DNA of 64,000 bases from Mycteria americana (lineage: Eukaryota > Chordata > Aves > Ciconiiformes > Ciconiidae). The DNA lies in NCBI RefSeq assembly GCF_035582795.1, contig NC_134390.1, positions 2,495,560 to 2,559,559 on the forward strand, in the 5' to 3' direction. Of the stretch, positions 33,196-60,700 are shown piece by piece (position 1 is the stretch's first letter; each line of letters begins with the position of its first letter). The notes under the pieces are model-generated. The model worked only from the letters and a program-made list of their open reading frames with translations. It was not told where the DNA came from and did not search any database. Both the position numbers and the translations under genes were made by a program.

Positions 33196-34571
33196 ATGGC
33201 CACGCTCCGCCGCCTCTGCCTCTGCCTCTGCCTCCCGCTGCTGCTGCCGCCGCCCGCGGCCCCGGCCCCGGCCCCGGCCCCGGCCCCCCGCACCGACTGG
33301 GCCGCCTGCAGGAGCCTCTCCCGGGAGCTGTTGCGGCTGGTGGCGACCCTCAAGGAGCCGCACCGGGCCCTGGTGAGCGCGGGGGGCTCGGCTGGGGGGG
33401 CCCGGGGGTCTGCGGGCGCCGGAAGGTGCGGGGCATCCCGGCAGGAGGGGTGCCCCGAGGGTGCGGGGTGCCCCGAGGGCGCGGGGTGCCGGGGGAGGCG
33501 GGGGGTGCGGGGGGCGTGTGGACCCTGCTGACCCCCCGCTGCCAGGAGGAGCTGAACCTGAGCGAGGAGGACCCCAAGAACTGGCCCCCCCGGATCCGCT
33601 GCAGCGATGCCTGCGACCCCTCCACGCTGGACACCAACAACACGGTACCGGGGGACGTGGGGTGGTCAGGGACCACCGTGGGGCAGCCAGGGAGCCTGAG
33701 GGTGCCCCGGGGGGGGGGCATGAGCCCGGGGGTGCTCTGGGGGATGCGCCTGGGTGTCCTAGGAATGGCCGGGGGATGTGCCCGGGGGTCCCAGGGGTGC
33801 TGGGAGTTCCCGGGGGTGCCCGGGGGTCCCAAGGGATGCTGAGGCATGTGCGCCGTGGTGCCAGGGGTGCTGGGAGTTCCCAGGGGTGTCCAGGGTTCCT
33901 GAAGGTGCTGGGGGTTCCCAGGAGTGCCCGGAGGTCCCAAGGGATGCTGAGGCATGTGCCTGGGGTTACCCAGGGGTGCCCGGGGGTCCCAGGGAAGCTG
34001 AGGGATGTGCCCGGGGTTCCCAGGGGTGCTGGGGGTACCCAGGGGTGCCCGGGGATCCCAGGCTGCCAGGGGACGTGTGCGGGGGTCCCAGGCTGCCAGG
34101 CGATGTGTGCGGGGGTCCCAGGGTGCCGGGGGATGTGTGCGGGGGTCCCCGGCTCACGCCCCGCTCCCCGCAGCGCTGCCTGCAGCGCATCCTCCAGGGG
34201 CTGCAGCACTACCGGGACCTGCTGGGCTCCGACATCTTCACCGCTCGCCGCCTGCCCCGGCTGGAGGCTGCGCTGGACCAGCTGCTGGGCCTCGTCCAGG
34301 TGAGGGGCCGGGGGGGCCGGGAGGGGGTGCCAGGGCCGGGGGGGGGACCCGTTCCCCCCGCGGCCGGGGAAGCGGGCACCCATCGGCCGTGGCCGCGGGC
34401 CCCCTAACCCCGCTCTCCCCGCAGCAGGAGCACGGCCGCCCCTCCCAGCACCCCATGGACCCCAGCGAGGCCTGGGCCCACCCGCTGCTGCAGCGCCTGG
34501 CGCTCCAACGGCTCCAGTCCTTCACCGCCGTCATGAGCCGCGTCTTCACCCACAGCGCCAGCCCCCGCTGA
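33196..34571 (+). CDS. IL23A: Interleukin-23 subunit alpha (p19)
   Basis: Four exons, 33196-33372, 33546-33644, 34174-34299 and 34425-34571, all phase 0, giving 182 aa (human 189). IL-23 p19 is a four-helix-bundle cytokine subunit secreted with IL-12B p40; it drives Th17-type responses. A signal peptide (MATLRRLCLCLCLPLLLPPP) is followed by an Ala-Pro stretch. Family features: IRCSDACDPSTLDTNN (human IQCGDGCDPQGLRDNS), RCLQRILQGLQHYRDLLGSDIF (human [21 protein letters not shown]) and a C-terminal helix ending FTAVMSRVFTHSASPR. The four-exon layout and position between PAN2 and STAT2 match human. Sequence outside these blocks is divergent, as usual for cytokines. Confidence 0.95.
33690..34150. 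repeat. Minisatellite in IL23A intron 2
   Basis: Imperfect copies of about 25-28 bp with words ccaggggtgctgggagttcc and gtgcccgggggtcccag. It fills nearly all of intron 2 (33645-34173). Confidence 0.85.
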
Positions 34572-41947: not shown

Positions 41948-42912
41948 CAGACGATGAGGACGGTGCCGCTGTGGGCGGTGGGGGCCGGTGGGGGGTCCCC
42001 GTCCGAGGTGAAGTAGCTGATGAGCGCCCGCACCCCGGCCTTGAGCCCCGGCTGCAGCCCCAGCTGCAGCCCCAGGGCCACGGGGCCACCAGCGCTGGCA
42101 GCGATGGCGGCCAGGCCGGCGTAGCCCAGGTCCTCGGCGAGCTCCAGGGCCCGCGTGGAGGCCAGGGCCTCGCAGCCCTGGAAGGCGTAGTAGAGGCTGG
42201 TGCCCAGGTTGTAGAAGGTGCTGACGCCCGGCACCCACTCCAGCACCCTGTGGGCCTCCTGCTCCCCCGGTGGGTTACAGGCATCCTCGTCCTCCCGCCG
42301 GCGCCGGGACTGGTGCCGGGTGGCACGGCGGCACGCAGGCAGCCAGGCACGGGCCCCGGCCTCCGGGAGCACCCGGACCCCCTCGGCCAAGGGCCCCGCG
42401 CCCGGCACAGTGGGCGCAGCGGGGTGGGTGCCGGCCGCGGGGCCCCGGAGCCGGGCGGGTGCCGCGCAGGGCCGTGCCGGGGCAGAGCCCCCCGGCCGCA
42501 CCAGGCTGAGGAGGAGGGGCAGGGTCTTGGAGGCCGGGGCACCCCGCAGCCGCGCCAGCCCCCGCAGCAGCGCCGCGGCCGTGGCGGGGCCCAGCTCCCG
42601 GGACAGCGCCAGCACCTCCGCCTCGGCCTGGGGCCCGCAGGCGGCCCCGGTCAGCGCCAGGGCCATGGCGGCGCGAGCCAGGGCGCGGGGCAGCGGCGGG
42701 AGCCGGGTGAAGCCAGGCAGGGTCTCGGGGCGCAGGTCCCGGCACGACACCCCGTGCCCCGGCAGGGCCCCCGCTGGGATGAGCTCCGCCAGCTGCACCA
42801 GCAGCGCCCGCGCCGCAGCCCGGTCGTCGGCCTCCGGCCCGGGGGGGACGAGGGAGAGGGCTCTGCCCCCCAGGCCGAGGAGGAGGAGGACGAAGAGCAG
42901 AGCCTGGGGCAT
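41947..42912 (-). CDS. APOF: Apolipoprotein F
   Basis: One uninterrupted coding exon, 321 aa (human 326). APOF is a liver-secreted, HDL/LDL-associated protein also known as lipid transfer inhibitor protein, which modulates CETP. An N-terminal signal peptide (MPQALLFVLLLLGLGG) leads a Leu/Ala-rich proregion. A polybasic cleavage site (RRRR, residues 203-206) precedes the mature domain starting around EDEDACNPPGEQEAHRVLEW; human APOF has the closely similar ACNPP-EQE and EWVPVVSTFYNLGTSLYYA. Here that block reads VSTFYNLGTSLYYAFQGC. The ATG has a good Kozak context (GCCGCCATGC). Identification also rests on position between STAT2 and TIMELESS, as in human. Confidence 0.9.
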   Translation of the reverse strand: MPQALLFVLLLLGLGGRALSLVPPGPEADDRAAARALLVQLAELIPAGALPGHGVSCRDLRPETLPGFTRLPPLPRALARAAMALALTGAACGPQAEAEVLALSRELGPATAAALLRGLARLRGAPASKTLPLLLSLVRPGGSAPARPCAAPARLRGPAAGTHPAAPTVPGAGPLAEGVRVLPEAGARAWLPACRRATRHQSRRRREDEDACNPPGEQEAHRVLEWVPGVSTFYNLGTSLYYAFQGCEALASTRALELAEDLGYAGLAAIAASAGGPVALGLQLGLQPGLKAGVRALISYFTSDGDPPPAPTAHSGTVLIV

Positions 42913-43476: not shown

Positions 43477-46400
43477 TCAATCCTCCTCCTCATCCTCATC
43501 CTCCACGCGGCGGACGCGCTTCCGCCTCCCCAGGGGCTGCGGGTCCTCATCCTCGTCCTTGTCCTCGTCCTCCTGGGAGCGGGGGGCTGCGGGGTCCGGC
43601 TCCGCGCCTGCGGGTGGAGGGAGCGGGGAGGGGGCTGAGCCCCTCGGGGCCAGGGGGAGTGGGGGTACACCCCGAGCCCCCGCTGTCTCCCCAGCAGACC
43701 GCAGGGGAAGAGCCCCTGCAGCCCCCCAGGAGAGAGCGGAGGGGCTGAACCTACCCGAGCCCCCGGTGTCCTCGTCCTCGCTGTCCGGCTCCCTTCGCCT
43801 CTTGGTGCCCGGCTGCGCCGCGCTGGGGACGGGGACAGGCTCCTCGCTGCAGGGGTTGGCACCGCTCAGCCCCGCACTGGGAGAACCCAGGGGTCTGGAT
43901 CCCCCCCCCCCAGTCAGGGAGAGGAACCCCCGAGCGTTGGGGAGAGGACCCCGCTGCGGGGCCGTGCCTGGGAGCCCGTTCTCACCTCTCCGAGTCCGAC
44001 CCCAGCCCTGCCGGCGGCCGCTCTGCTGAGGGGCACGAGAAGAGGGGCTCAGGGCTGGTCCCACGGCTGGGGGACCCCAGCCCGGCTCCCGCGCCCCCAG
44101 CCCGGGCCCTCACCTGGATCGGGGTCCCGGGGGCACCTGGGTGGCTCCAGCAGCTCCTGGGGGGACCCCGGGGGGTCGGGGCCGCGGTGGGCGATGGAGG
44201 CGGCTGCGCGGCGGAGCTGCTGCGGGGTGAGGGCAGCCGGGATGCGCCAGAAGGATTCCTGGGCAGAGAGGGGAGACGCTGCAGGGCCACGCAGGCAGCG
44301 AGGGGATGGGGATGGGGACGGGGACGGGGACCTCACCTGCTCGCTGGCGGGGGGCCGGAGCCCCAGCTGCCGCAGCAGGGCCCGGAAGCGCCGGTCCTCC
44401 ATGGCGTCCTCGTTCTCCTCCGAGAGCGGCACCAGCGGCACCGGGTGGGACACGCCTGGGCCGGGAGCACCATCAGCCGGGCCCCAGCCCGCGCCCTGGC
44501 CCCCGCCCGCTGCCCCCCACCCGCTCACCGTCCTCCTCGCGGTCCCCGGCTGTCCTCCGCAGGCAGTTCTCCAGCCACCGCAGGGGCCCGGCCAGGCCTG
44601 GGGACAGGGCAGGGTGAGACGGGATACGGCCCCCGAGCCAAGCCCGACCGGGGGGCTCGGAGCCCCTCGCCCACCTTCCTGATGCAGGTGATGCGCCAGG
44701 CCCTGCCCGGCCCCTTCCTCGGGCACCCAGTGCTCCTCCATAGGGCCTTCCTCTGCTTCATCCTCCTCCTCCTCCTCCTCACTGTCCCCGTCCTCTGCCG
44801 AGCTGTCCTGGGCTGGTGCCGCCGAGGCGCCTGCCACGCCCTGCGGGGAGCAGCAGCGTCTGGGTGCCCGTGATGGGGCAGCGCCCGCTGGGCACAGCCC
44901 GGGCCCCCTCCGGCCCCTCCATACCGGCCCGGGGCCGTGGCCCTTCCTCCGGCGCTTCTTGTACAGCTCCTTGCGCTCCGACACCAGCCCCAGTCCCAGC
45001 AGCTTCTCCACCACACGAGCCCGCGACCGCCGCGCTGTCAGGTGCTTCATGATGTTCCCCAGGACGTCTGCGGGGAGGGGGGTCAGGGCGGGGGGCTGCG
45101 GGGGGCCGCCCCACCCCAGCCCGCCCTGGCCCCGCTCACCCTCCGAGCCCTGGAACTCCTCGAAGAGCCGCGCCAGCTCCTCCTCCTGCTCCTGCGTCCA
45201 CAGCACCAGGCGGGTGCCCTTCCTGGGGGGGCACGGCCGTTGGTCCCGGCCCCGGGGCGAGGCAGCCGCCCCGGCCCGGGGGTCCCGTGGGGGTCCCCGA
45301 CCCACCTCTCCCGCGGGAAGTCCTTGGTGCTGCTGGCCAGCCCCAGCCGCACCAGCTGCTTCACCACCTGCCGCCGCGTCCGCCCGGGCGCCGGGAGATG
45401 GGCCACGATGGCGGCGATGACATCCTCGCCTGCGGGAGCCGGAGGCTGCAGGGTCGGAGCCCCCGCTGCCCCCCGGGGGTCCCGCTGCCCCCCACCCCGG
45501 GGAGCCCCGGTACCTTCCACCTCCTTGTACTTCCAGTACAGCTCCCGCAGCTCCTGCTCCTCCTGGGGGGTCCAGGGGGGGACCCGGCTCCTGCCGGCCC
45601 TGGGCAGAGGGGAAGGGAGGTGAGGGGAGGTGGATGGGAGGGCGGCAGCCCCCTCCCCAGCCGCACTCACCCCTCTCCCTCCCGCAGGGAGCCGTAGCCC
45701 TCGGTCATCTCGCGGACGGCCGCCGGGCTCTTCCAGAAGAGCAGCTCCACGAAGGCCTTCTTGTTGGTGGCCGCCAGCGCAAAGAACTTGCCCAGGACGA
45801 ACTTGGCCAAGGCCACCAGCTCCTGCAGGCGGAGGGAGGGAGAGCGGGGCTGGGAGACGCCGGGGGGGACCCCTCCCTGGGGCGCAGGGGGAGCCGGGCC
45901 CCGGCTGACCTGGTGCGCGCCGGCGGCGGGATCGCTGAGGAGGCGGTGGAAGAGGGCGAAGAGGGAGAGCTGGAAGAGCAGGGCCTCCATGCGCAGGTCG
46001 CGGGCCAGGCGGTGCAGCAGGCGGGCGGCGCAGTGGTTGGTGCGGGGGCTGTTGCGGGCGTACCCCCGCAGCAGCAGCACGAGCGCCCGGACCACGGGCG
46101 CGCAGGCGAACCTGCCCCGGCAGCCCCAGTGAGCGGTGCCGCCCCGGCGAGCGGTGCCAACCCGGACCCCCGGGCCCCCCCATCCCCTCTCACCGTTTCA
46201 GGTAGTCGAGAAAGTTGAACTCCTTCTCCGACACCTGTACGGTCTCTTCCTCCTCTTCCTCATCTTCCTCTTCCTCTTCCTCCGGCGCCTCGTCCTCAGG
46301 GGGCACGTGGCCTGTGGTGGGACGGTGGTGAGGGCCTGGAGCACCCCCCGGCCCAGAGCCCATCGCTCCCGGTGCCGCTCCCCGGGGACTCACGGGGCAG

Positions 46401-49400
46401 GGGAGCGAAGAGGATCTCCCGCAGCAGCTGGGTCTCCTCGGGCGGCCCCGCGTCAGGGGGTCCGAACACGTCCCCTTCGGGCCAGACGTCCCTGGGGAGA
46501 GGGGGACAGGCTGGCACCGTGTCCCCGCGCCCCTGCCCTGGGACGGGAATTGCGGTGCCGGTACCTGGCAGAGCGGAGCAGCCGCAGGGCCTGGGGGGCC
46601 CGGGCGTCCCGCAGGCACCCCTGGATCCGCAGCAGAGCCTCCGCGCGCTGCTCCTCCACCGGCGTCTCCGAGGCGGCGTCGAAGGGCACCGCGTCCTCGG
46701 GGAGGGGCACCTCGCCCTGGGGCAGGACTCTGTCACCCCACGCCCCGCCAAGACACCCGGTGCCGCCCGCGGGGCCAGACCCTTCCCCCTACCTGCAGGC
46801 AGGCCTGGAGCTGCGGGGCCAGCCCTGCCCAGAGCTCCTCCAGCTCCGCGGCGCTGGGCGGCTGCGGGGCGAGGGCTGCGGGTGCCCGCGGCTTCTTCCT
46901 CCTCCGCACGCGCTTGCTCTGGGGGGCCAGGACGGGATCAGGAGGGGCTGCCCGGCCCCCCAGACCCCCCACCCCCGGCGGGGCTGCCAGATCCCACCTG
47001 CACCACGAGGCCGGCGCGGCCCCGGCAGAAGCGCTCCAGCATGCGGAGGAAGAGGTGGGCTGTCTCCACCAGGTCCCGCAAGAAGCTGCGCGGCTGCTTG
47101 GTCTCGTCGAACTTGCGGAAGAGGGCGAGGAAGAGCTCCCGGTACTCCATCAGGTAGAAGATGTTGCCTGGGGGAGGAGAGGGTCAGCCGAGGACGAGGT
47201 CAGACACACACCCCCACCCCCCCAGGTACGGGCGGAGGGACAGACGGACTCACTCTTGATGACCTGGCTGCTGTCCCGCACCGCCTGCTCGGGGGACCGG
47301 TCCATCTCCTGCACCGTCCGCAGCAGCTCCTGGTACGCCTTCAGGGCCAGGTGCATCCTGGGGACAGGCAGCATCAGGGCAAGGACCCGCGCCCAGGGGG
47401 GGTCCCAGGCACCCGGGGGGGGGTCCCGGCCCCCACCTGCGGGCCCAGGTTGCTGCCTCCTTCTTGTCCATCAGCGCCATCTCGTAGTAGGTGGTGAGGT
47501 TCTGCTCGATGAAGTGGAAGGCACGGACGCCCACCGTCTCCGACACCAGCTCGGGGCGGAAGCCCCGGCGGCGGTTGAAGGCCATGAAGAAGGCGGTGGC
47601 CCACAGGTAGTAGGTCTCGTCGTGCTGCTGAGCCTTCTCCCGCACCAGCTGGTCCTGGGGGCGGTGGCGGGGGGGGGACGACTCAGCGGGGGTCCCGCAG
47701 CCCGGGGAGGGGGTCGCAGCCCCCCCGGCCCCTCACCTTGACCAGCAGCATCAGGCGGTTGTAGCAGCCCTCCAGGAAGTCCTGGCAGAAGCGGCGCAGG
47801 AAGAGCCGGACGTTGCGGGCAGAGCGGCGGGGAGGCTCGGCCTCAGGGGCGGCCTGGCGCCGCCGCGGCACCCGCCGCGTCTCCTTGCCCAGGTCGTGGC
47901 TGTAGCTTTTCAGCTGCAGGGGACAAACATGGAGCAGCCGGACTCGTGCCCCCACGTCATCCCTGTGCCCCCCCCCCCCCATCCCTGTCCCCGCGCTCAC
48001 GTTGTGCAGCCCCTTGTGGAAGACGACGTCCCGGTCCCCGATCGCCTTCAGGCCCTGCAGGACGTAGGAGCCGCCGAAGCGGGAGTGCCTGGGGCAGGGG
48101 GACACGGGCTGAGCGGTGCCAGCCCCGCCACGGGGGTCCCAGCCCCGCCACGGGGGTGTCGACCCCCCCCTCACCTGGACGGGCGCCGCAGCCCTCGAGC
48201 CCTCCTCTCCGCCAGCTCCCGCTGCCGCAGGGTCTCCAGCTCCCGCGTGTCCTCCCTGTGCTCGGCAGCTGCCTGCCCCTGCCCCAGCGCTGCCAGCTCC
48301 TCCGGGCTCTGCGGGCAGCGCCGTCAGCGCTGCAGGGGGACGGCAGGGGGGTCCCCGGCCCCATCGCCCCCCGCCCCGGCTCACCTGGTCGCGGAACATG
48401 AGGGAGATGATCTCCAGAACGTGCAGGGCCCATTGCTGCTCTGCCTGGGCGCTCGCCAGGAACTTGAGCAGGTCATCCATCCCGCTGATGTGCAGCGCCC
48501 ACAGCACCCGGTCGTGCACGCTGGCATCGCCATCCACGCTCTGGGGGGGACGGCGGGCAGGGAGGGCTCAGCAGGCAGAGGGTCGGGGTCCCCAGGGAGC
48601 TGCCACAGCCCCAGACCTGCCGGGTACCCTGGGGAAGGGCCCTGTCCCCATACCTGCTCCTCCGTGGGGTCCGGGGGGACGTGCAGCACATTGCGCACCA
48701 GCAGCAAGATCCTCTCGATCAGCAGCGTGTCCTCCTCCTGCCGCTGCTCCCAGTCCTGGGGCGACGGAGCCGTGAGGGGTCCCCGTGGCACCCACGGGAA
48801 CCCCGGCCCCACTCGGCAGGGACGGAGCCCACGGTCACCGGGAGCGGCGCAGGGACACGGGACTCACCAGCTGCAGCAGGTCGTAGAGCTTCTCGCTGAG
48901 CACCCCAAAAACTTTCTCACTGGCGAAAGCCTGCAGAAACCCCTGCGTGAGTCTGGGGGGGCCCAAGCAGAGCCCCCCGCGCAGGGGCCGTGCCGGGGGC
49001 ACCTGCCTGGGCAGACTCACCTCTTTGTAGGCCTGGAGGTAGGACAGGACCTGGAGAAAGTGGTGCCGGGAGGCGGCATCTGGCGGCACTTTGCCAAAGC
49101 AGAGCAGAGCCGGCTGCGTCAGGTTCACCATCAGCCTGCAAGCGGGCAGGGTGGGGGCGCGTGGGACCACCGCTTCGTGGGGACGCCCCCGGCCCCCCAT
49201 CCTGCCCGCCCCAGTACCTGACGACAGCATCGAAGAGCACCTTGTCCTGCGGGTGCTGGACCAGGATGGGCAGGAGGTCGTTCTGCAGGATCTGGGCCGC
49301 CCCCAGCTGCTGCCGGACGTCCCGGGTCTCGTCCTCATGGCGCAGGTACCGGATCAGGTCCTTGACGCTCTCTGGGGGGGACGGGGCCGTGAGCCCCCGA

Positions 49401-49535
49401 CGCCCCCGGCCCCCGCCGCCCCCCGCCGCCCCACCTACCCAGGCAGTCGGGCTCCCGGTGGTAGACGTCCCCTTCCAGGTAGCCCAGGGCGCTGCAGGTG
49501 GCCAGCAACTCGCAGTTCATCATGTACAAGTCCAT
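43477..49535 (-). CDS. TIMELESS: TIMELESS, replication-fork protection protein
   Basis: Twenty-nine coding exons, in phase, 1207 aa (human 1208): 49439-49535, 49218-49371, 49021-49135, 48868-48930, 48654-48755, 48385-48540, 48175-48308, 48001-48088, 47737-47913, 47437-47654, 47254-47357, 46998-47167, 46793-46918, 46565-46716, 46394-46491, 46194-46311, 45910-46111, 45671-45822, 45514-45599, 45306-45429, 45140-45222, 44925-45067, 44675-44840, 44529-44597, 44337-44455, 44114-44258, 43986-44025, 43755-43846, 43477-43607. TIMELESS forms a nuclear complex with TIPIN at replication forks and acts in S-phase checkpoint signalling. N-terminal Timeless domain starts [40 protein letters not shown] and [16 protein letters not shown] are typical. 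An acidic stretch precedes [16 protein letters not shown]. The C-terminal half includes the PARP1-binding region and an Asp/Glu-rich tail. It is the mammalian-type Timeless, not insect TIM. Confidence 0.97.
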
Positions 49536-50706: not shown

Positions 50707-52499
50707 CTACAGGCCCTGCGTCTTCAGCTCCAGCGTCTTCAGCTCCAGCGGCTCGGCCGGCGGCTCGGCCGGCGCCTCGGCGGCGGGGGGCTCTCCCTTG
50801 AGGGCGGCCAGGCGCTCGGCCAGGCTGCGCGGCCGCGGGCACAGCGCGAACTCGTACAGCACCGCGCCCAGCGCCGCGCCCAGCAGCGGGCCCGCCCAGT
50901 ACACCTGCGGGGGGGCGGCGTGGGCACCGGCACCCCCGGGCACCCCCCCCGCCCCCCGTCCCGGCCTGCGGGGCTCCGGGCGCCCCCAGCTTCGGGGCTC
51001 CGGCGGGGCCGGGGACTCCCCCCTCCCCCCCCCCCGCCCCCTTCGGGGCACCCACCTCCCGGTGCGGGGGGGGGCAGCGCGAGCGAGGGGCGGCCACGTC
51101 CCCCCGAGATACTGGGGGGGCGGCAGGGCCGGGGGGGGGCTCCTCGCGCCCCACCTGCGCAGCCCCCGGCACCCCGGGGCGCTGCCGTCAGCGGGGTGGC
51201 TCCGGCGGCTGTCCCCCCTCGGAGGGGACACCGCGGCTGGGGGAGGACCAGGACAAGCGGGGAGGGGCTGGGAAGGCCCCGGGCGGGGTGGGGGGTCCCC
51301 CCGCCCCACTTACCCAGTGGTTGGTGAAGTTTCGGGTGATGACGGCGGGGGCGAAGGAGCGAGCGGGGTTCATGCCGGCGCCCGTGTAGTGGATCTGCGG
51401 GGAGGACGGGGCGGTGGGGGGGAGGACGGGGCGGTGGGGTGCCGCTGGCTGCCCCCGCGGCCCTGGACCGCCCCCCAGCCCCCGGGGTCACACCAGGAGG
51501 GCCCCCGCGGCCGCCCTTACCCCGAAGAGGTGCCCAAGGGCGAGGGAGAAGCCGACGGGCAGCGCGGCTGAGCCCGGGCGCCCGTCGTGGCGGTCATCGA
51601 AGCTGGCCAAGACGCAGAGGATGAACTGGGCGGTCAGGAGCAGCTCCACCACCATGCCCTGGCCCGGGCCCACGCTGGGGTGCAGCTGCGCAGGGAGGGG
51701 GGCTCAGCACCCTGCCTGCCCCCGGCCGGCAGCCAGCACCCCACGGAGCTGGTCCCCCCTTCCCCCGGCACCCCAAACCCCCGCCGCCCCGGCCGTCGCC
51801 CCGCCGCGCTCCCAAGCACCTCCTGGCCCCAGTTCCCTGTCGCCCCGCTCGCCATCCGCAGCCCCGCCGTACCCCAAAGCCCTGTTTACCCCCCCAACGC
51901 CGCCTGGACAGCCAGCCCCCATCACTGCCCCACGCCACCCCAAAGCCTCAAGCGCCTCCTGAACCCCCTAATCCCCCATCGGCCCCAGCGCCCCGAACCC
52001 CCGAGCATCTCTGAACCCCCCAGTCAGCCATTACAGCCCCACGGTACCCCAAAACACCTCTTAGAGCCCCCCTCACCCCCCCCCGCCCCACAGCACCCCA
52101 ACCCCTCAAGCATCCCCAGCCCCCCCCGGCCCCGCTCACCATGCTGAGGCCGAGGGTGCCGCGGATGGAGGCCGGCGTCACGCCGTAGAGCACGCCGGCC
52201 CCGGCCAGGGCGCCCAGCAGCTGGGCCAGGAGGTAGCCCAGGGCACGGGGCAGGGAGAGCTGCGAGGCCAGCAGGAGGGCCAGCGTGATGGCCGGGTTGA
52301 CGTGGCCCCCGCTGACGTGGCCCAGCGCCTGCACCAGGGTGGCCTGGGCCAGCCCGAAGGCCAGGGCGGCCCCCAGGACGCTGTGGGGGCCCGGGGCCCA
52401 GCGCAGGGAAGCCCCCAGCCCCAGCAGGGCATAGAGGAGGCTGCCCAGGAACTCGGCCAGGACGGCCCTCCAGAAGGCGGACGAGCGCAGCTCCCGCAT
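50707..52499 (-). CDS. MIP: Lens fibre major intrinsic protein, aquaporin-0
   Basis: Four exons, 52140-52499, 51521-51685, 51314-51394 and 50707-50904, all phase 0, 267 aa (human 263). AQP0 is the six-helix water channel and junction protein of lens fibre membranes. It begins [21 protein letters not shown] (human MWELRSASFWRAIFAEFF). Both NPA boxes are present: GHVNPAIT and [10 protein letters not shown]. The selectivity-filter Phe (LAFGLAQ), His (ALGHLFG) and Arg (NPAR) are all kept. The C-terminal [15 protein letters not shown] resembles the human calmodulin-binding helix. The tail contains a short duplicated LELKT. The four-exon layout equals human. Confidence 0.97.
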
Positions 52500-52566
52500 G
52501 GCCTGGCCCCGCTGCCCTCCGTGGCCCCGCTCCCCTCCCCGGGGGCCGCCCGCACCCACCTTTATA
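52500..52566 (-). promoter_or_regulatory. MIP: MIP core promoter with TATA box
   Basis: TATAAA on the minus strand at 52566-52561, 62 bp upstream of the ATG. Start site is expected near 52535. A TATA box fits a tissue-restricted lens gene. Confidence 0.75.
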
Positions 52567-53395
52567 AGGCCCCCCCGGGCCGGCCCCGGGGGTGGGATCC
52601 CACCGCCGCCACCCCCCCGTTAACCGCTTCGCTGCCCGGGGCGGGGGCCGGGTGACGTGCGGCGAGGGCCCCCCCCGAGCTCCCCCCCCCCCCGGGGCAG
52701 CCCTGCACCCCCAGGATAGGGGGGACCCCCCCGAGCCGCGTCCCCCCATCCCTGGGGCTCCCTGGGTGGGGGGGCTCTGACCCATAGGTGCCCTCTGCGG
52801 GGTCTGGGGGACACCACCCTGCTCGGGGCCGGGGGCAGTGCTGAGACACCCCCCCACCATGTTTTGGGGGACACTTTGGGGTGACCCTGCCGGGACCCAG
52901 CCTCTCCCAGCCCCACACGGGGGGGGGAGGGGGGGGGGGGGCTGGGTGCCCCCCCGGGCCAGCCCCGCTGGGGGCCACGGGGGCTCCCCCCGCCCCGGCC
53001 CTGTTGTCTGCAGGAGGGTTATTCAGCCTGGCTTAGCGGGCGCTAATTCCTCGGCCGGGGGGATTAGGGCCAGGCCCGGCCATTGGCGCCCGCGGAAATC
53101 TGCCGGGGCTGCAGAGGCCGCGACAAAGGGCTTTGCTGCGCTCAGCGCCCCGGCACGGGACGGGGCGGACGGGGGGTCCCGGCCCCCAGCCTCGCCGCGG
53201 GGCCGCTGGGAGGGGGCACGCGCCTGGGGGAGCCGGGGAGGGGGCACGGCCCCGAGGGAGGCACGGGGGAGGACCCCAGCGTCGGGGTGCCCCCACGCCC
53301 CGAGGGCGCAGGACGGGGGTCTTGCAGCCACCGAGACCCCCCCCCCCCCGTCCCCCACGGCAACACTCTGCACCCAGCTCTGACCCAAAGCCACC
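52567..53395. other. Gap between MIP and the AQP4-like gene
   Basis: Mostly G/C homopolymer-rich. An AT-containing island at 53020-53135 carries cagcctggcttagc, gctaattcc, ggattaggg and an inverted acaaaggg/ctttg pair, which look like homeobox (OTX/CRX) and SOX-type words upstream of MIP. No exon seen. Confidence 0.5.
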
Positions 53396-53401
53396 TTTAA
53401 T
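53396..53401 (-). terminator. AQP4-like gene poly(A) signal, ATTAAA
   Basis: TTTAAT on the plus strand, about 200 bp after the stop codon of the second aquaporin. The spacing is close to that of MIP and its own signal. Confidence 0.6.
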
Positions 53402-53601
53402 CCCCCCGGGGGCAGGGGGCGGGGGGGGGGGCTGGAGCCATCTGTGCGCGGCCCCCCCCCACCCCCCCCATCCTGCCGCGGGGGGGCACCGTGCCCCGGG
53501 TGCCCCATGGAGGGTGCTGGGCTCGGGGGCTGGCGGGGACCCGGCATGGGGACCCACGTGCCAGCTCCCACCGGCTGGGTCGGAGCAGGGGGCCGGGGGG
53601 C

Positions 53602-55721
53602 TCAGGCCGTGCCCTGGCCCCGCTCGGCCGGGGGGGCCGGGGGGCTGCGGGCGGAGGGCGAGGAGGGGGACGGGCTGGTGGTCTCCACCAGCGCCACGTC
53701 CCGGCAGGCGAGGCAGGCGCCCAGCTTCTCCCGGGAGGCGCTGGGGGCGAAGACGAACTCATAGGAGAGCCCGGCCAGCACCGCGCCCAGCACCGGCCCC
53801 AGCCAGTACACCTGGGGGGGGGGGACACACACGCGTGTCAGGGGTGCCCCAGGGACAGGGGGACGCGGGGCCAGGGGCTGCTGGGCACTGCCCCAGGGAT
53901 GGGGGGACTGGGGACCCCACACCAGTGACGGGGACTGACTGGAGGAACCTGCTCCAGGCACGAGGAGCCACGGGGGGATCACACTTTTGGGATGGGGGGA
54001 CCGGGAGGGGCCGGTCCCAAGGATGGGGACTGGGGGGGGGACCCGTCCTGTGATGGAGGGACCAGGAGGACCCAACCTGGGGATGCAGCCAAGGGTGACC
54101 TGTCCAGGGGGGACCGGGGAGACCCGTCCAAATGAAGGGACGAGCCTGGGACCCCTGTCCTGGGGCGGGGACGGGACCAGGGGGGTCCCACGCTGCAGCT
54201 GGGGGCACCCATCCCCATATTGGGGTCTCTGGGGGGGACGCGGGGGTGCCGCTGACTCACCCAGTGGTCGTCCCAGATGCCGGTGACGACGGCCGGCCCC
54301 AGCGAGCGCGCCGGGTTCATGCTGCCCCCCGAGAACGGCCCCTGCGGAAGAGGGGGGTCAGGGCCGGCCGGGGCAGGGGCCGGCAGCCCCGGGGCGGGGT
54401 GGGCAGGGGTCCTCACCGCAGCCAGGGCACCAGCGGCCACGGCGCTGCCCAGGGCCAGCCCGCCCTGGGGGGCCGCCCGGTCGGTGGCGGCAAAGGCGGC
54501 CAGTGCCAGCTGGAAGGTGGCGAAGGTCTCCCAGGCCAGGGCCTGCCCCGCCGTCCCCGCCGCCGTCACCTGCCGCGACAGCCCGGCCTCAGCGCCCCGC
54601 CACCGGGATGGGGACGGGCACAGGGACGGGGACACTCACCCTGGTGACGAGGCTGGCGTCGTCCGGCAGCGCCAGGCGGGCAGCGGCGGAGGCCAGCACG
54701 GCCCCGGCACACTGGGCCAGGAGCCCGGCAGCCCCGCGCAGGGCGCCCAGCTTACGGGTGCAGAGCAGGGCCAGGGTGAGCGCCGGGTTGGCCTGGGGCG
54801 CCCCGAGGGTGCAGGCCAGCGCCCCGGCCACCAGCCCCCCGGCCAGCGCCGGTGCCAGGGGTGCGGGGGCCACCGAAGCGCCCAGCACCACCCCCACGAA
54901 GATGAGCGTCGCCGCTGCCTCCGCCAGCACCCCCCGCCAGAAGCACCCGCTCCGCAGCTCCTGGGGGCACAGGGCAACCGGTGGCCCGGTGCCACGGCGA
55001 TGGGGTGCCACGGTGACAGAGTGCCTTGGTGATGGGGTGTTGTGGCAATGGGGTACCTCAGCGATGGGGTGCCATGGCAACAGGATGCCTCAGCAACCAG
55101 TACCTTGGCGACAGGGTGCCATGGTGATGGGACCCCTCAGCAACTGGGTACCGCAGTGATGGGGTGCCATGGCAACTGGGTACCACGGTGATGGGGCGCT
55201 ACGGCAACTGGGTACCGTGGTGATGGGGTGCTATGGCAACTGGGTACCACAGTGATGGGGTGCTACGGCAACTGGGTACCGTGGTGATGGGGTGCCACGG
55301 CAACAGGATGCCCAGCATCACCGGGTACCATGGTGATGGGGTGTCTTGGCAAAGGGGCACCTTGGCAACAGGGTCACTATGGCAACAGGAGCACCACGGC
55401 AATGGGGCCACCATGGCAACAGAGATGGGTGCCATGGCTACAGGGGGTTACGGTCACAGGGGTGGGGGCAGGCACCACAACAGGGCTGGGGGCCACGGAG
55501 TGGGGGGCATAGAGGGACCCCCGTGCTGGGGCTACGGGCTGGGGTGCTGGGGCTGGGTGCCGAGATGACAGACTGGGGGTGGTCCCCATGAGTCGGGGGC
55601 TGCTCACCCACCCCCCGGCAGGGCGGGACCCTGGGCCGTGGCTCTGGGGGGCGAGCGGGGGGCTGAGGGGGAAGGGGCCGGGGCGGCGCAGCTCGCAGGG
55701 CCTTACCTCCCCGAGGGCCAT
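53602..55721 (-). CDS. AQP4-like aquaporin (possible AQP14) with altered selectivity filter
   Basis: Five exons, 55707-55721, 54640-54960, 54417-54569, 54261-54341 and 53602-53811, all phase 0, 259 aa. A classical aquaporin fold is evident: ELRSGCFWRGVLAEAAATLIF start, NPA boxes at residues 63-65 (QANPALT) and 172-174 (SMNPARSLGPAVV). IWDDHWVYWLGPVLGAVLAG then YEFVF is closest, from memory, to AQP4 (NWENHWIYWVGPIIGAVLAG, YEYVF). Exon boundaries 2-5 coincide with MIP; an extra five-codon first exon (MALGE) resembles the upstream exon of AQP4. Unusual: the filter His aligns with A160, the position three before the second NPA is G169, and the helix-2 Phe appears to be Ala; R175 is kept. The first NPA loop is about two residues shorter. 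Tandem to MIP, so it may be a retained ancient duplicate such as AQP14; I cannot settle orthology. Confidence 0.85.
54975..55440. repeat. 32-bp minisatellite in AQP4-like intron 1
   Basis: About 14 copies of a unit containing ggggtgccatggcaactggg and taccacggtgat. It fills intron 1 (54961-55706). Many copies contain (t/c)gccatggcaac, close to the RFX X-box palindrome. Confidence 0.93.
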
Positions 55722-56790
55722 GGCGCAGCTGCGGGCGAGGCAAGCGCGGAGGACGCCCGGGAAGGGGGCACCTCCACCCCCCCGCCCTGCCACCCCCCCG
55801 GGCGCGGGGAGGGAAGGGCCCCGCCTGGCACAAGGCGCTCCTGGGGTGCAGGAGGGGGCCGAGGACGGGGCAGGGCCCTGGCGGGCCGCAGGGTCGTGGG
55901 ATCGGGCTCGGAGCATCTCTGGGTGCCATGGCAACGAGCTGGGACACTTTGGGGTGTTGCCACGACGACCAGCGCTCCATCCCCGGGGGAGAGATGAAAG
56001 GCAGGGATGAAAGGCTGGGGGGAGCGGGGGGGGGGGGGGGCACCCCCGTAGCCAGCCCTGCTCGCACACCAGTGACGAGAGCCGGGGGCCGGGGCCGTCC
56101 CCGCCGTGCCGGTCCCCAGGGGGGCAGCGGGAGAGGGCTGGGGCGGGGGTGCCCCTGCCCCCGCCCGCAGGGAGCCGGGTGCCCGCGTCCCTCCCGTGTC
56201 CCTGCCGCGTCCCTGCCAGCTCAGCAGCCGGCCCCGCACGTGGGGTGAGTCAGCGGGCGGGTGCCAAGGGCCTGGCTCAGCACGGCCCGGCCCTGCTGAC
56301 GCCCTGCAAAGAGCCAGAACAATCCGCGCCCGGGGCCGCCACAAAGGGACCGGGCCGGTGCCGCGGGACACGCGGGCGGGCGGCGGGGCCGTGCGGCCCC
56401 TGCGCCCCGGCCGAGCGGAGGGCAGCGGGGGGGGGCCGGGCCCAACGCCCCCGGGGCACCCCCGGCACCGGCCCGGCCCCCGGCTGAGCTCACCCCGGGG
56501 ACCCCGGGTCCTGCCCCCAGACCGGCCGGGGGGACCCCCTGAGCCGCCCCACAAAACCCTGCGGGACCCCGCATGGTGCCCCCACCCGACAGAACACCCC
56601 GGGGACGCCCAGGCCTGCCCCTGCCCCGCAGGGCCCCCGTCCTGCCCCGCAGGGGCCCCAGGCCCCCATGATCCCCCCTCCTGTCCCAGAGACCCCTCAG
56701 GGACCCCAGATCCCCCCCCGACCCCCCATCCTGCTCCCCTCTAACATCCCCCACCGCGGGGGGGGGCGGGGGGGGGCGGGGGCGGAGACG
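55722..56790. other. Gap upstream of the AQP4-like gene
   Basis: GC-rich, with homopolymers near 56028. A TGAGTCAGC word near 56244 is an AP-1/MAF-type half site about 520 bp upstream of the aquaporin ATG. No SPRYD4 or GLS2 exon was recognised here. Confidence 0.45.
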
Positions 56791-57772
56791 CGAGGCGCCA
56801 AGATGGCGGCCCCCTGCCCGCCTTCAGCCGCAGGGCGGAGCCAGCCGGAGTCACGCGGCGGGGGAGGGAGGTGCCAAGATGGCGGCCCCGCCTGACGGGC
56901 AGGCGGCGGCGAGCGGGGGGGGGGGGGCGGGCGCACGTGACCGGCGGCTCCAAAATGGCCGCGCCCATGGTGCGGGCGGCGCGGGGCGGTGCGACCGCCC
57001 CGCCGAGGGGTAATGGCGGCGGGGGCGGGGCTTCGCCGCCTCAAAGGAGCCGCGCTTAAAGGGGCCGCGTAGTTACGGGCCGGGGCGCTCCGGCTGCCGC
57101 GATGCTGAGGCCCCCGGGGCCGCTGCGGGGCCCCGGCGCCGGGGCAGCCCATCCCTGGCCGGGCAGTGACACCCCCGTGGCGGGGGGGGCCCGGGTGTGC
57201 AGCCCCCCCCCCGCGGCGCCATCGGTCCCCGGGGTCCCGGGCGTTCGGGGCCCAGCGAAGCCGCGGTTGACGCCAGCTGCAGCGGGGCGCAGGCCCCGGC
57301 ACGGCGGCCGGGCCCGGCCGGGGGATGGTGCCGGGTGGCACCGCGGTGCCGGGGGCAGGGGGTTCCCCCGGTGTCGCCCCCCCCCCTCCCCCGGCCGGCC
57401 TGGCCGGGGCACCGGGGCGATGCCTCGGCTGGGGGCCAAAGTCCAGCCGGGGCCGGGGGCTCTGGGGGTCCCTCCCCGCGGCGGGGCAGCACCGGGGGGG
57501 GGGGGGGGGTGTCCCGCAGGCGGCCAGGCCGGGCCCCGCCACGGGGTGCGGGGGGTGCGTCCCCCCCCTCCGCCCCCCGGGGAGCCGCCTGCCCCACAGC
57601 CCCGGGGGGCCGGGCCCCACGCGGGGCCCCCCACGGGGGGCGCGGGGCCGTCCCCGGCGTTAGGACCCGGCCTGCGCCGTGCCAGCCCGGATTCCAGGCT
57701 GGCTCCCGGGCGTGACGTCAGGCGCGGGCCCGCCTGGCTCCCGGCCCGCCCCGGCCCCTCGCGCTCGGGAAA
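56791..57772 (+). promoter_or_regulatory. RBMS2: RBMS2 CpG promoter region with YY1-type motifs
   Basis: AAGATGGCGGC occurs at 56800-56810 and 56876-56886, and AAAATGGCCGC at 56952-56962, exactly 76 bp apart. YY1 motifs in this orientation usually sit at or just after transcription starts. The rest to 57772 is CpG-rich leader or first-exon DNA without recognised coding sequence. Confidence 0.55.
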
Positions 57773-60700
57773 ATGCTGCTCTCGGTGCCGCCGCGCTCCG
57801 GCCTCCCCGCCTTCGCCTACAACAAGAGCGGCAAGAAGGTAGGGGGGCCCCCGCCCGCCCCCCGGCCCCCCCCCCCCGGGCCGCCCGCCCGCCGCCAGGC
57901 GCGGCCCGGCCCGGCCCTTGGCTGTGGCGGGGCCGCGGGCAGCGGCGGCTCCGTCCCGGGGCACCCCCGGTCCCCGCCGCGGGGGGAGCCGCGCCGCGGG
58001 CCGAGCGGCGGCGTGGGCGGGGGGGACCCGCCGTGGCGGCCCTGGGGGTTGGCCGTTGCCGCGGGGGGGGGGGGGGGGGGCACGGGCATGGCGGGGCCGC
58101 GTCCGTCCCCCCCCCCCCGCCCCCAGCTGCGGGGACGGGCCCCGATACCGGGGAGAGCAGGGAGCGACGGCGGGGGAGGGCGCTGGGGTCCGCAGCAGGG
58201 CCTGGGGCGGGGGGGGGGGGGGGGAGGGGGCAGGGGGACACCAGGGACCGGCCCACGCCGGGACAGGGGTCAGGGCGGGACAGCCGGGGGGGGGCTGCCT
58301 GCCCCCCCCCCCCCCCCGCCCCGTGCCTCAGTTTCCCTGCCTGGGGGGGGCTGCGGTCACCCCGTCTTGGCCCCACACACAGCACAGACCCAGGGCAGGG
58401 GGGGCGGCCCAGCCGGGGGCGAGGGGCTACGTGGCCCCACGTGGGGCGGGACGGCTCCCACGGACACCTGTCCACACTTGCACACGCGTGTGCAACACGC
58501 ACACGCCTGCCCTGCGCGAGCACGGACCTCTGCGCCCAGCCGTGCCCCCGCCACGGGGTAACAGCCCCGCACGGCCCGGGCCGGCTCTCGCACGCGTGCT
58601 CCCCCCGCACACACGGATCAGCCCCGGGACACGCTTGCACACGCGTGGGGGGCACTGCACACGCAGACGCTTGCGAAGGGTGCCTGCTTGTGCGCAGGGT
58701 GCACGCCAACATGTGTGCGCACACACACGTGTGCACCCCCACACGCGTGTGCACCTACATGTGTGTGCACAGCCGTGCTCGCTTGTGGCAGGGGGGTCCC
58801 CGGGGGCGTCTGTGGGTCCCGGACAGGGGACCCCATGCCGGTGGGTGACCCCCAGCCCCGTCCCCCGGGGGGGGGGTGGTGTTTAGGGTGGGGGGGGTCA
58901 CCCCCATCCCCGTCCCCACCTGGCCAGGACCCAGGGCCGGCCGCCCCGAGCTGCAGCAGGGCCTGGACTTGGGGGGCCACGGGGCTGGGGAGCCGGGGGG
59001 ACGCAGGGACGTGGGGCCGCCCCAGGGATGGGGGGACCCGAGGAGGGGGACAGGGACCCGGGGGGCCGGGGTGCGGGGGCGGCCGCGGGTGGATTCATTT
59101 TTTCACGTTGACATCAGGCCCGGCGGTTTCCCAGCCGGCGCCGCCTCCGGCCACCGGCCAAGGGGCCCCGGGGATGGGCGCCGGCCCTGGGGCCGTGTCG
59201 GACCGGGGGTCCCGTGGCCGGGGGAGTCCCCGGGACGGGCAGGATCCGGCCCCGGGCCCTGCCGGGGGCTTCGGCTGCCCTCCCTGCACCCGCACGCATG
59301 TCCCCTGGGGGGCCGGGATCGGGGGGGGCGGCTGCAGCAAAGTCGCGGCGGGCGCTGACCCCTGCCCCCCAGCAGCCCTATGTGCCACCGGCGCAGCCGC
59401 TGGGCCCCCCCAGCCCCAGCCCCGCCGGGGGGGGCACGGACCAGCTCAGCAAGACCAACCTCTACATCCGGGGGCTGCACCCCGGCACCACGGACCAGGA
59501 CCTCGTCAAGCTCTGCCAGCCGTGAGTGGGGCCAGGACCCCCCCGGGGGCCGGGGCTCCCCCTGCCCCCACCCCAGAGCCCTGCTGCGGCGGGGCTGGGG
59601 GCCCTGCCGGGCGCTGACCCCCTCTCTTCCCCCCAGCTACGGGAAGATCGTCTCCACCAAAGCCATCCTGGACAAGACGACCAACAAGTGCAAAGGTTGG
59701 GGGGGGCCGTGGTGCTGGGGCGGGGGGCCGGGGTCTCTGGGGCCCCCTCTCACCGCCAGCCCCCCCCCCCCCCAGGCTACGGCTTCGTCGACTTCGACAG
59801 CCCCACGGCAGCCCAAAAGGCCGTGACGGCGCTCAAGGCCAGCGGGGTGCAGGCGCAGATGGCCAAGGTACAGCACGGCCCCTCGGGGCCCCCCTGACAC
59901 CCAGAGCCCCCCGGGACCCCTGCCAGGTGCTGCGGGGCCCGGCCGGCCCCCTAACCCCCCCCACAGCAACAGGAGCAGGACCCCACCAACCTCTACATCT
60001 CGAACCTGCCGCTGGGGGTGGACGAGCAGGAGCTGGAGGCGCTGCTGAAGCCCTTCGGGCAGGTGGTCTCGACCCGCATCCTGCGGGACCCCCACGGGGC
60101 CAGCCGCGGCGTGGGCTTCGCACGGTACGGGGGCGGGGGGGCTCTGCTGCGGGCCGAGGGGTGCGTGGGGCTGGGGGGTGCGTGGGGCAACGCATGGGGC
60201 TGGGGGGGGCCAAGGAGGACGGGGGGGGGATGCTTGGGGCCGCACAGAGCCGGGGGGGGGGCTGCACGGGGCCGGGGGCAGCCGGGAGGGCCCCGTGCGC
60301 GGCCCCCGCCCCAGCCCCGCTCCCCCCAGGATGGAGTCCACGGAGAAATGCGAGGCCGTCATCACCCACTTCAACGGGAAGTACATCAAGATGCCCCCGG
60401 GGGTGCCAGGTGGGCTGGGGGGGTCCTGGGGGGCTGGGGGGGCCGGGGGCCGGCTGACGGCGCTGACGGCCCCTCCCCGCAGCCCCCCCGGACCCGCTGC
60501 TCTGCAAGTTCGCGGACGGGGGGCAGAAGAAGCGGCAGAGCCAGGGCAAGTTCGTGCCCAACGGGAGAGCCTGGGCCCGGGACGGCGATGCGGTGAGAGG
60601 GGGGTGGGGTGGGGAGGGGGTCCTGCTGGGGAGCGAACCCCACAGCTGCTGGGGGGGGGGGGGGGGGGGCGTGGGGCAGCGCTGACCCTTTTGCCCCCCC

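Follow-up and report, generated by a model that had tools for sequence, protein, structure and literature searches.

An intact, five-exon gene upstream of MIP in Mycteria americana is very probably an orthologue of AQP14

Within a GC-rich stretch of the genome of Mycteria americana, an aquaporin-like gene with an unusual selectivity filter raises the question of which aquaporin it is, and whether it is a form that has already been described. The window analysed here is the whole stretch of 64,000 nucleotides around this gene, and all positions refer to it.

Gene structure and coding evidence

The candidate gene lies on the minus strand, from the ATG at 55721 to the last base of the stop codon at 53602, and the spliced model joins five exons into a protein of 259 aa with no in-frame stops. 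All four introns are GT-AG and of phase 0, leaving every splice border (8/8) intact; the 53602-55721 span given in the original prediction is exact, and its five-exon layout holds. The exons are as follows.

55707..55721, minus strand: exon 1, MALGE (5 codons), an ATG and then a GT donor in phase 0
54640..54960, minus strand: exon 2, TM1-TM3 with the first NPA (N63-A65), G46, and Q61, from its AG/GT borders and the alignment
54417..54569, minus strand: exon 3, TM4-TM5 with A160 (the helix-5 filter position), from the gene model and alignment
54261..54341, minus strand: exon 4, loop E with G169, the second NPA (172-174), and R175, from the gene model and alignment
53602..53811, minus strand: exon 5, TM6, the cytoplasmic C-terminus, and the stop, from the gene model

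The protein matches the Pfam MIP family (PF00230) with an E-value of 4.9e-40, and its best relative in the PDB is AQP4 (E 1.7e-39), followed by AQP2, AQP1, AQP5, and AQP0; the same comparison shows that its second half is well preserved. GC at the three codon positions is 0.76/0.64/0.94 (GC1/GC2/GC3), against 0.70 in the gene's own introns. An open frame alone carries little weight at 72.5% GC, but the homology (1e-39 to 1e-40), the single phase shared by eight splice borders, and the GC by codon position make this a real coding gene, above chance. Its product is a membrane channel with six helices and belongs to the AQP4-related grade of classical aquaporins. Apart from this, intron 1 contains a minisatellite (54988-55422) built of 16-, 32-, and 64-base units (GTGATGGGGTGCCATGGCAAC...), whose similarity at the longer periods is roughly 75-88%. 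An Rfam search of the whole window returned no matches.

Genomic neighbourhood

The gene order is TIMELESS-MIP-candidate-RBMS2, with the candidate 1.1 kb upstream of MIP (AQP0) and in the same direction, both on the minus strand. The neighbours are listed below.

44394..49535 (inner limit approximate), minus strand: TIMELESS, N-terminal exons matching human Timeless (E 4.7e-80) and Pfam TIMELESS (1.4e-33)
50707..52499, minus strand: MIP (AQP0), four exons, 267 aa, AQP0 as best match (E 1.2e-109), canonical filter F48/H172/A181/R187, and the neighbour downstream by which AQP14 is recognized
57773..60600 (inner limit approximate), plus strand: 5' part of an RBMS2-like gene with RRM domains (E 1.9e-31), which we take to be RBMS2

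A coding-score scan of the interval between MIP and the RBMS2-like gene (52500-57772) found coding signal from the AQP14 candidate only, and neither SPRYD4 nor GLS2 was seen there; in human 12q13 both sit between MIP and RBMS2. Further left in the window are citrate synthase, SH2, APOF, and IL23A domains, and the SH2-domain gene left of TIMELESS is presumably STAT2. The apolipoprotein F domain (42121-42294, minus strand; Pfam E 1.3e-7) has the STAT2-like gene on one side and TIMELESS on the other, the same arrangement as in mammals. An apparently intact IL23A (IL-23 p19) gene occupies 33196-34571 on the plus strand, pieces of two of its exons matching Pfam IL23 at 8.1e-9 and the PDB IL-23 p19 at 3.3e-6. 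The extreme GC content and the genes present in the window fit a bird as the source.

Selectivity filter, NPA boxes, and loop B

Filter positions were read from a MAFFT alignment of the candidate with AQP0, AQP1, AQP2, AQP4, and AQP5, in which the AQP1 and AQP5 rows were checked against PDB chains, being identical save for one position in the AQP5 chain. Both NPA boxes are intact, at 63-65 and 172-174, and the second is followed by R175 (NPAR). The filter is G46/A160/G169/R175, so that Gly46 and Ala160 stand where Phe and His would be sought. The gene model and alignment thus bear out much of the original prediction, which had both boxes and the filter Arg R175 intact, A160 at the helix-5 His position, and G169 three residues before the second NPA. 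It had also placed Ala opposite the helix-2 Phe; the position is indeed non-aromatic, but Gly46 is the more likely occupant, as A45 falls there only when a two-residue gap is forced into the alignment. Beyond the filter, S176, A180, Y192, and W193 align with S196, A200, F212, and W213 of AQP1, and we take S, A, Y/F, and W to be the identities of the P2-P5 residues. AQP14 has been reported to keep the P2-P5 signature of water-specific aquaporins (PMC4245216). Regional GC pressure alone was rejected as the cause of the Ala/Gly-rich filter: MIP, within the same GC-rich window, keeps its Phe and His (F48/H172/A181/R187), and the odd filter is therefore specific to the candidate rather than a product of base composition alone.

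The loop ahead of the first NPA (loop B) is three residues shorter in the candidate than in AQP0, AQP1, AQP2, AQP4, and AQP5, and it reads GAPQANPA (54781-54804) where classical aquaporins have GH(I/V)SG(A/G)HxNPA, the conserved His of HxNPA being replaced by Q61. QANPA in place of HxNPA had been recognized earlier, with the shortening put at about two residues rather than the three counted in the alignment. Our literature search on loop B of AQP14 found no published statement, and this shortening may be a trait of AQP14 or of avian AQP14, or a sign of relaxed constraint.

Assignment to AQP14

The AQP14 subfamily was defined as the sister of AQP4; its genes lie upstream of AQP0, and its proteins have the NPA and NPAR motifs but no aromatic filter residues (Finn et al. 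2014, PMC4245216). All sarcopterygian AQP14 genes have five exons, the first of 3-7 codons (Chauvigne et al. 2019, PMC6906440), and the sauropsid filter is A-G / A-T / G / R (Table 1, PMC4245216). The candidate (55721..53602) lies directly upstream of MIP (52499..50707), its five exons begin with MALGE, its G46/A160/G169/R175 filter falls within the sauropsid range, and its motifs are N63-P-A and N172-P-A-R175. It also clusters with AQP4, both as its best PDB match and in a tree (support 88/87, not starred, on a long branch). That tree has eight rows, two of them AQP4, and in it the grouping of the candidate with the AQP4 pair contrasts with a grouping with AQP0, which is disfavoured (AU p 0.029); placing it with AQP1, AQP2, or AQP5 is not rejected at the 0.05 level. 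Given the length of its branch (2.1 changes per site) and its skewed composition, we treat the tree as supporting evidence only. The identity of the candidate to the classical aquaporin rows is 34-45%, which is based on ungapped columns and truncated chains and is not directly comparable with the 25-36% published for AQP14 against human AQP0, 1, 2, 4, 5, and 6.

We conclude that the gene is, with very high probability, the intact AQP14 orthologue of a sauropsid. Because the alignment contained no AQP14 sequence, orthology rests on synteny, gene structure, the filter, and AQP4 affinity, and AQP14 itself was compared by its published description. The guess of AQP14 in the original prediction is thereby upheld by the site upstream of AQP0, the five exons, the five-codon exon 1, the AQP4 affinity, and the G/A/G/R filter, and the undescribed sauropsid paralogue that it also proposed is not needed, since the published description fits. 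The wide, non-canonical filter that it reported is real but is a published hallmark of AQP14 (Table 1, PMC4245216); it is already known for the family and adds nothing to it. AQP14 is present in reptiles and birds and was lost in eutherians (PMC6906440), and it has already been described from birds, reptiles, frogs, marsupials, and fish.

Alternative readings

The unusual three-residue deletion and the lost His ahead of the first NPA could mean relaxed constraint, and the gene might then be an AQP14 orthologue in decay that has kept its frame while loop B is damaged and the channel is non-functional or no longer expressed, comparable to the eutherian loss. The 24% Ala content and long tree branch of the protein are in line with this, as are the cheapness of open frames at 72.5% GC and the published description of AQP14 as a gene under weak constraint that became a pseudogene in eutherians (PMC4245216). 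The gene itself argues otherwise, with eight of eight splice borders intact and all in phase 0, no stop in 259 codons, a GC3 of 0.94 against 0.70 for intron GC, and a well-preserved second half, and we regard decay as unlikely. Still rather unlikely, in our judgement, is an AQP14 variant peculiar to this lineage, whose loss of three residues and the His from loop B would widen the cytoplasmic vestibule along with the outer filter and so give it a selectivity or gating unlike that of other AQP14 channels.

A previously undescribed sauropsid paralogue, separate from AQP14, would account for a loop B unlike that of other classical aquaporins, and the comparison with AQP14 was by description and not by direct alignment. 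However, the candidate sits exactly at the AQP14 site, the coding-score scan found no second candidate toward either MIP or RBMS2, and the exon structure and filter fit published sauropsid AQP14, all of which makes such a paralogue very improbable. An AQP4 or AQP15 orthologue, suggested by AQP4 being the best match, is harder still to credit and can practically be set aside, as the filter and the location contradict it. To our knowledge, AQP4 is not adjacent to MIP, lying elsewhere in vertebrate genomes. AQP15 is another non-mammalian classical aquaporin, but the filters of AQP4 and AQP15 contain Phe and His across vertebrates, apart from a single H-N case in teleost AQP15 (Table 1, PMC4245216).

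Predicted transport and regulation

For the AQP14 orthologue, fish provide the functional reference. Fish Aqp14 expressed in oocytes is permeable to water, urea, H2O2, methylamine (an ammonia analogue), and some glycerol, which has been ascribed to small, non-aromatic constriction residues that include a TM1 valine (PMC6906440). G46, A160, G169, and R175, together with valines 29-30, would give the candidate the same constriction architecture; V29 and V30 of its TM1 have the same numbers as V29/V30 in fish (PMC6906440) and may correspond to them. By analogy with that architecture, the best prediction is a water-plus-small-solute channel of broad permeability like that of fish Aqp14. Trafficking of fish Aqp14 is controlled by vasotocin, and the AQP14 C-terminus has a PKC Thr, reported as Ala in certain birds, at a distance of 16 residues from a PKA Ser (PMC6906440). 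Both A225/S241 and A222/S238 in the candidate have this 16-residue spacing, and either pair may correspond to these sites. Vasotocin regulation through C-terminal phosphorylation may apply here too, by extension from fish only; our literature searches on avian AQP14 function found nothing specific.

Significance and comparison with related aquaporins

The finding is real but ordinary: an intact AQP14 is confirmed, with a gene model, in a GC-extreme sauropsid region of the kind where annotation easily misses genes. The shortened loop B is the only part that might interest an aquaporin specialist, as the deletion and the lost HxNPA His appear to be the sole feature of the candidate unmatched in published descriptions of AQP14. 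Among the related channels, MIP shares with the candidate its tandem position, the fold, and the positions and phases of the last three introns, but it has no separate first exon and the two are 38% identical; the candidate has neither the F/H/A/R filter of AQP0 nor AQP0 as its best match, and MIP proper is the gene beside it. AQP4 is 43% identical to the candidate across 207 aligned positions and has the CTRK and YEFVF/YEYVF stretches in common with it, whereas its F/H/A/R filter is replaced in the alignment by G/A/G/R.
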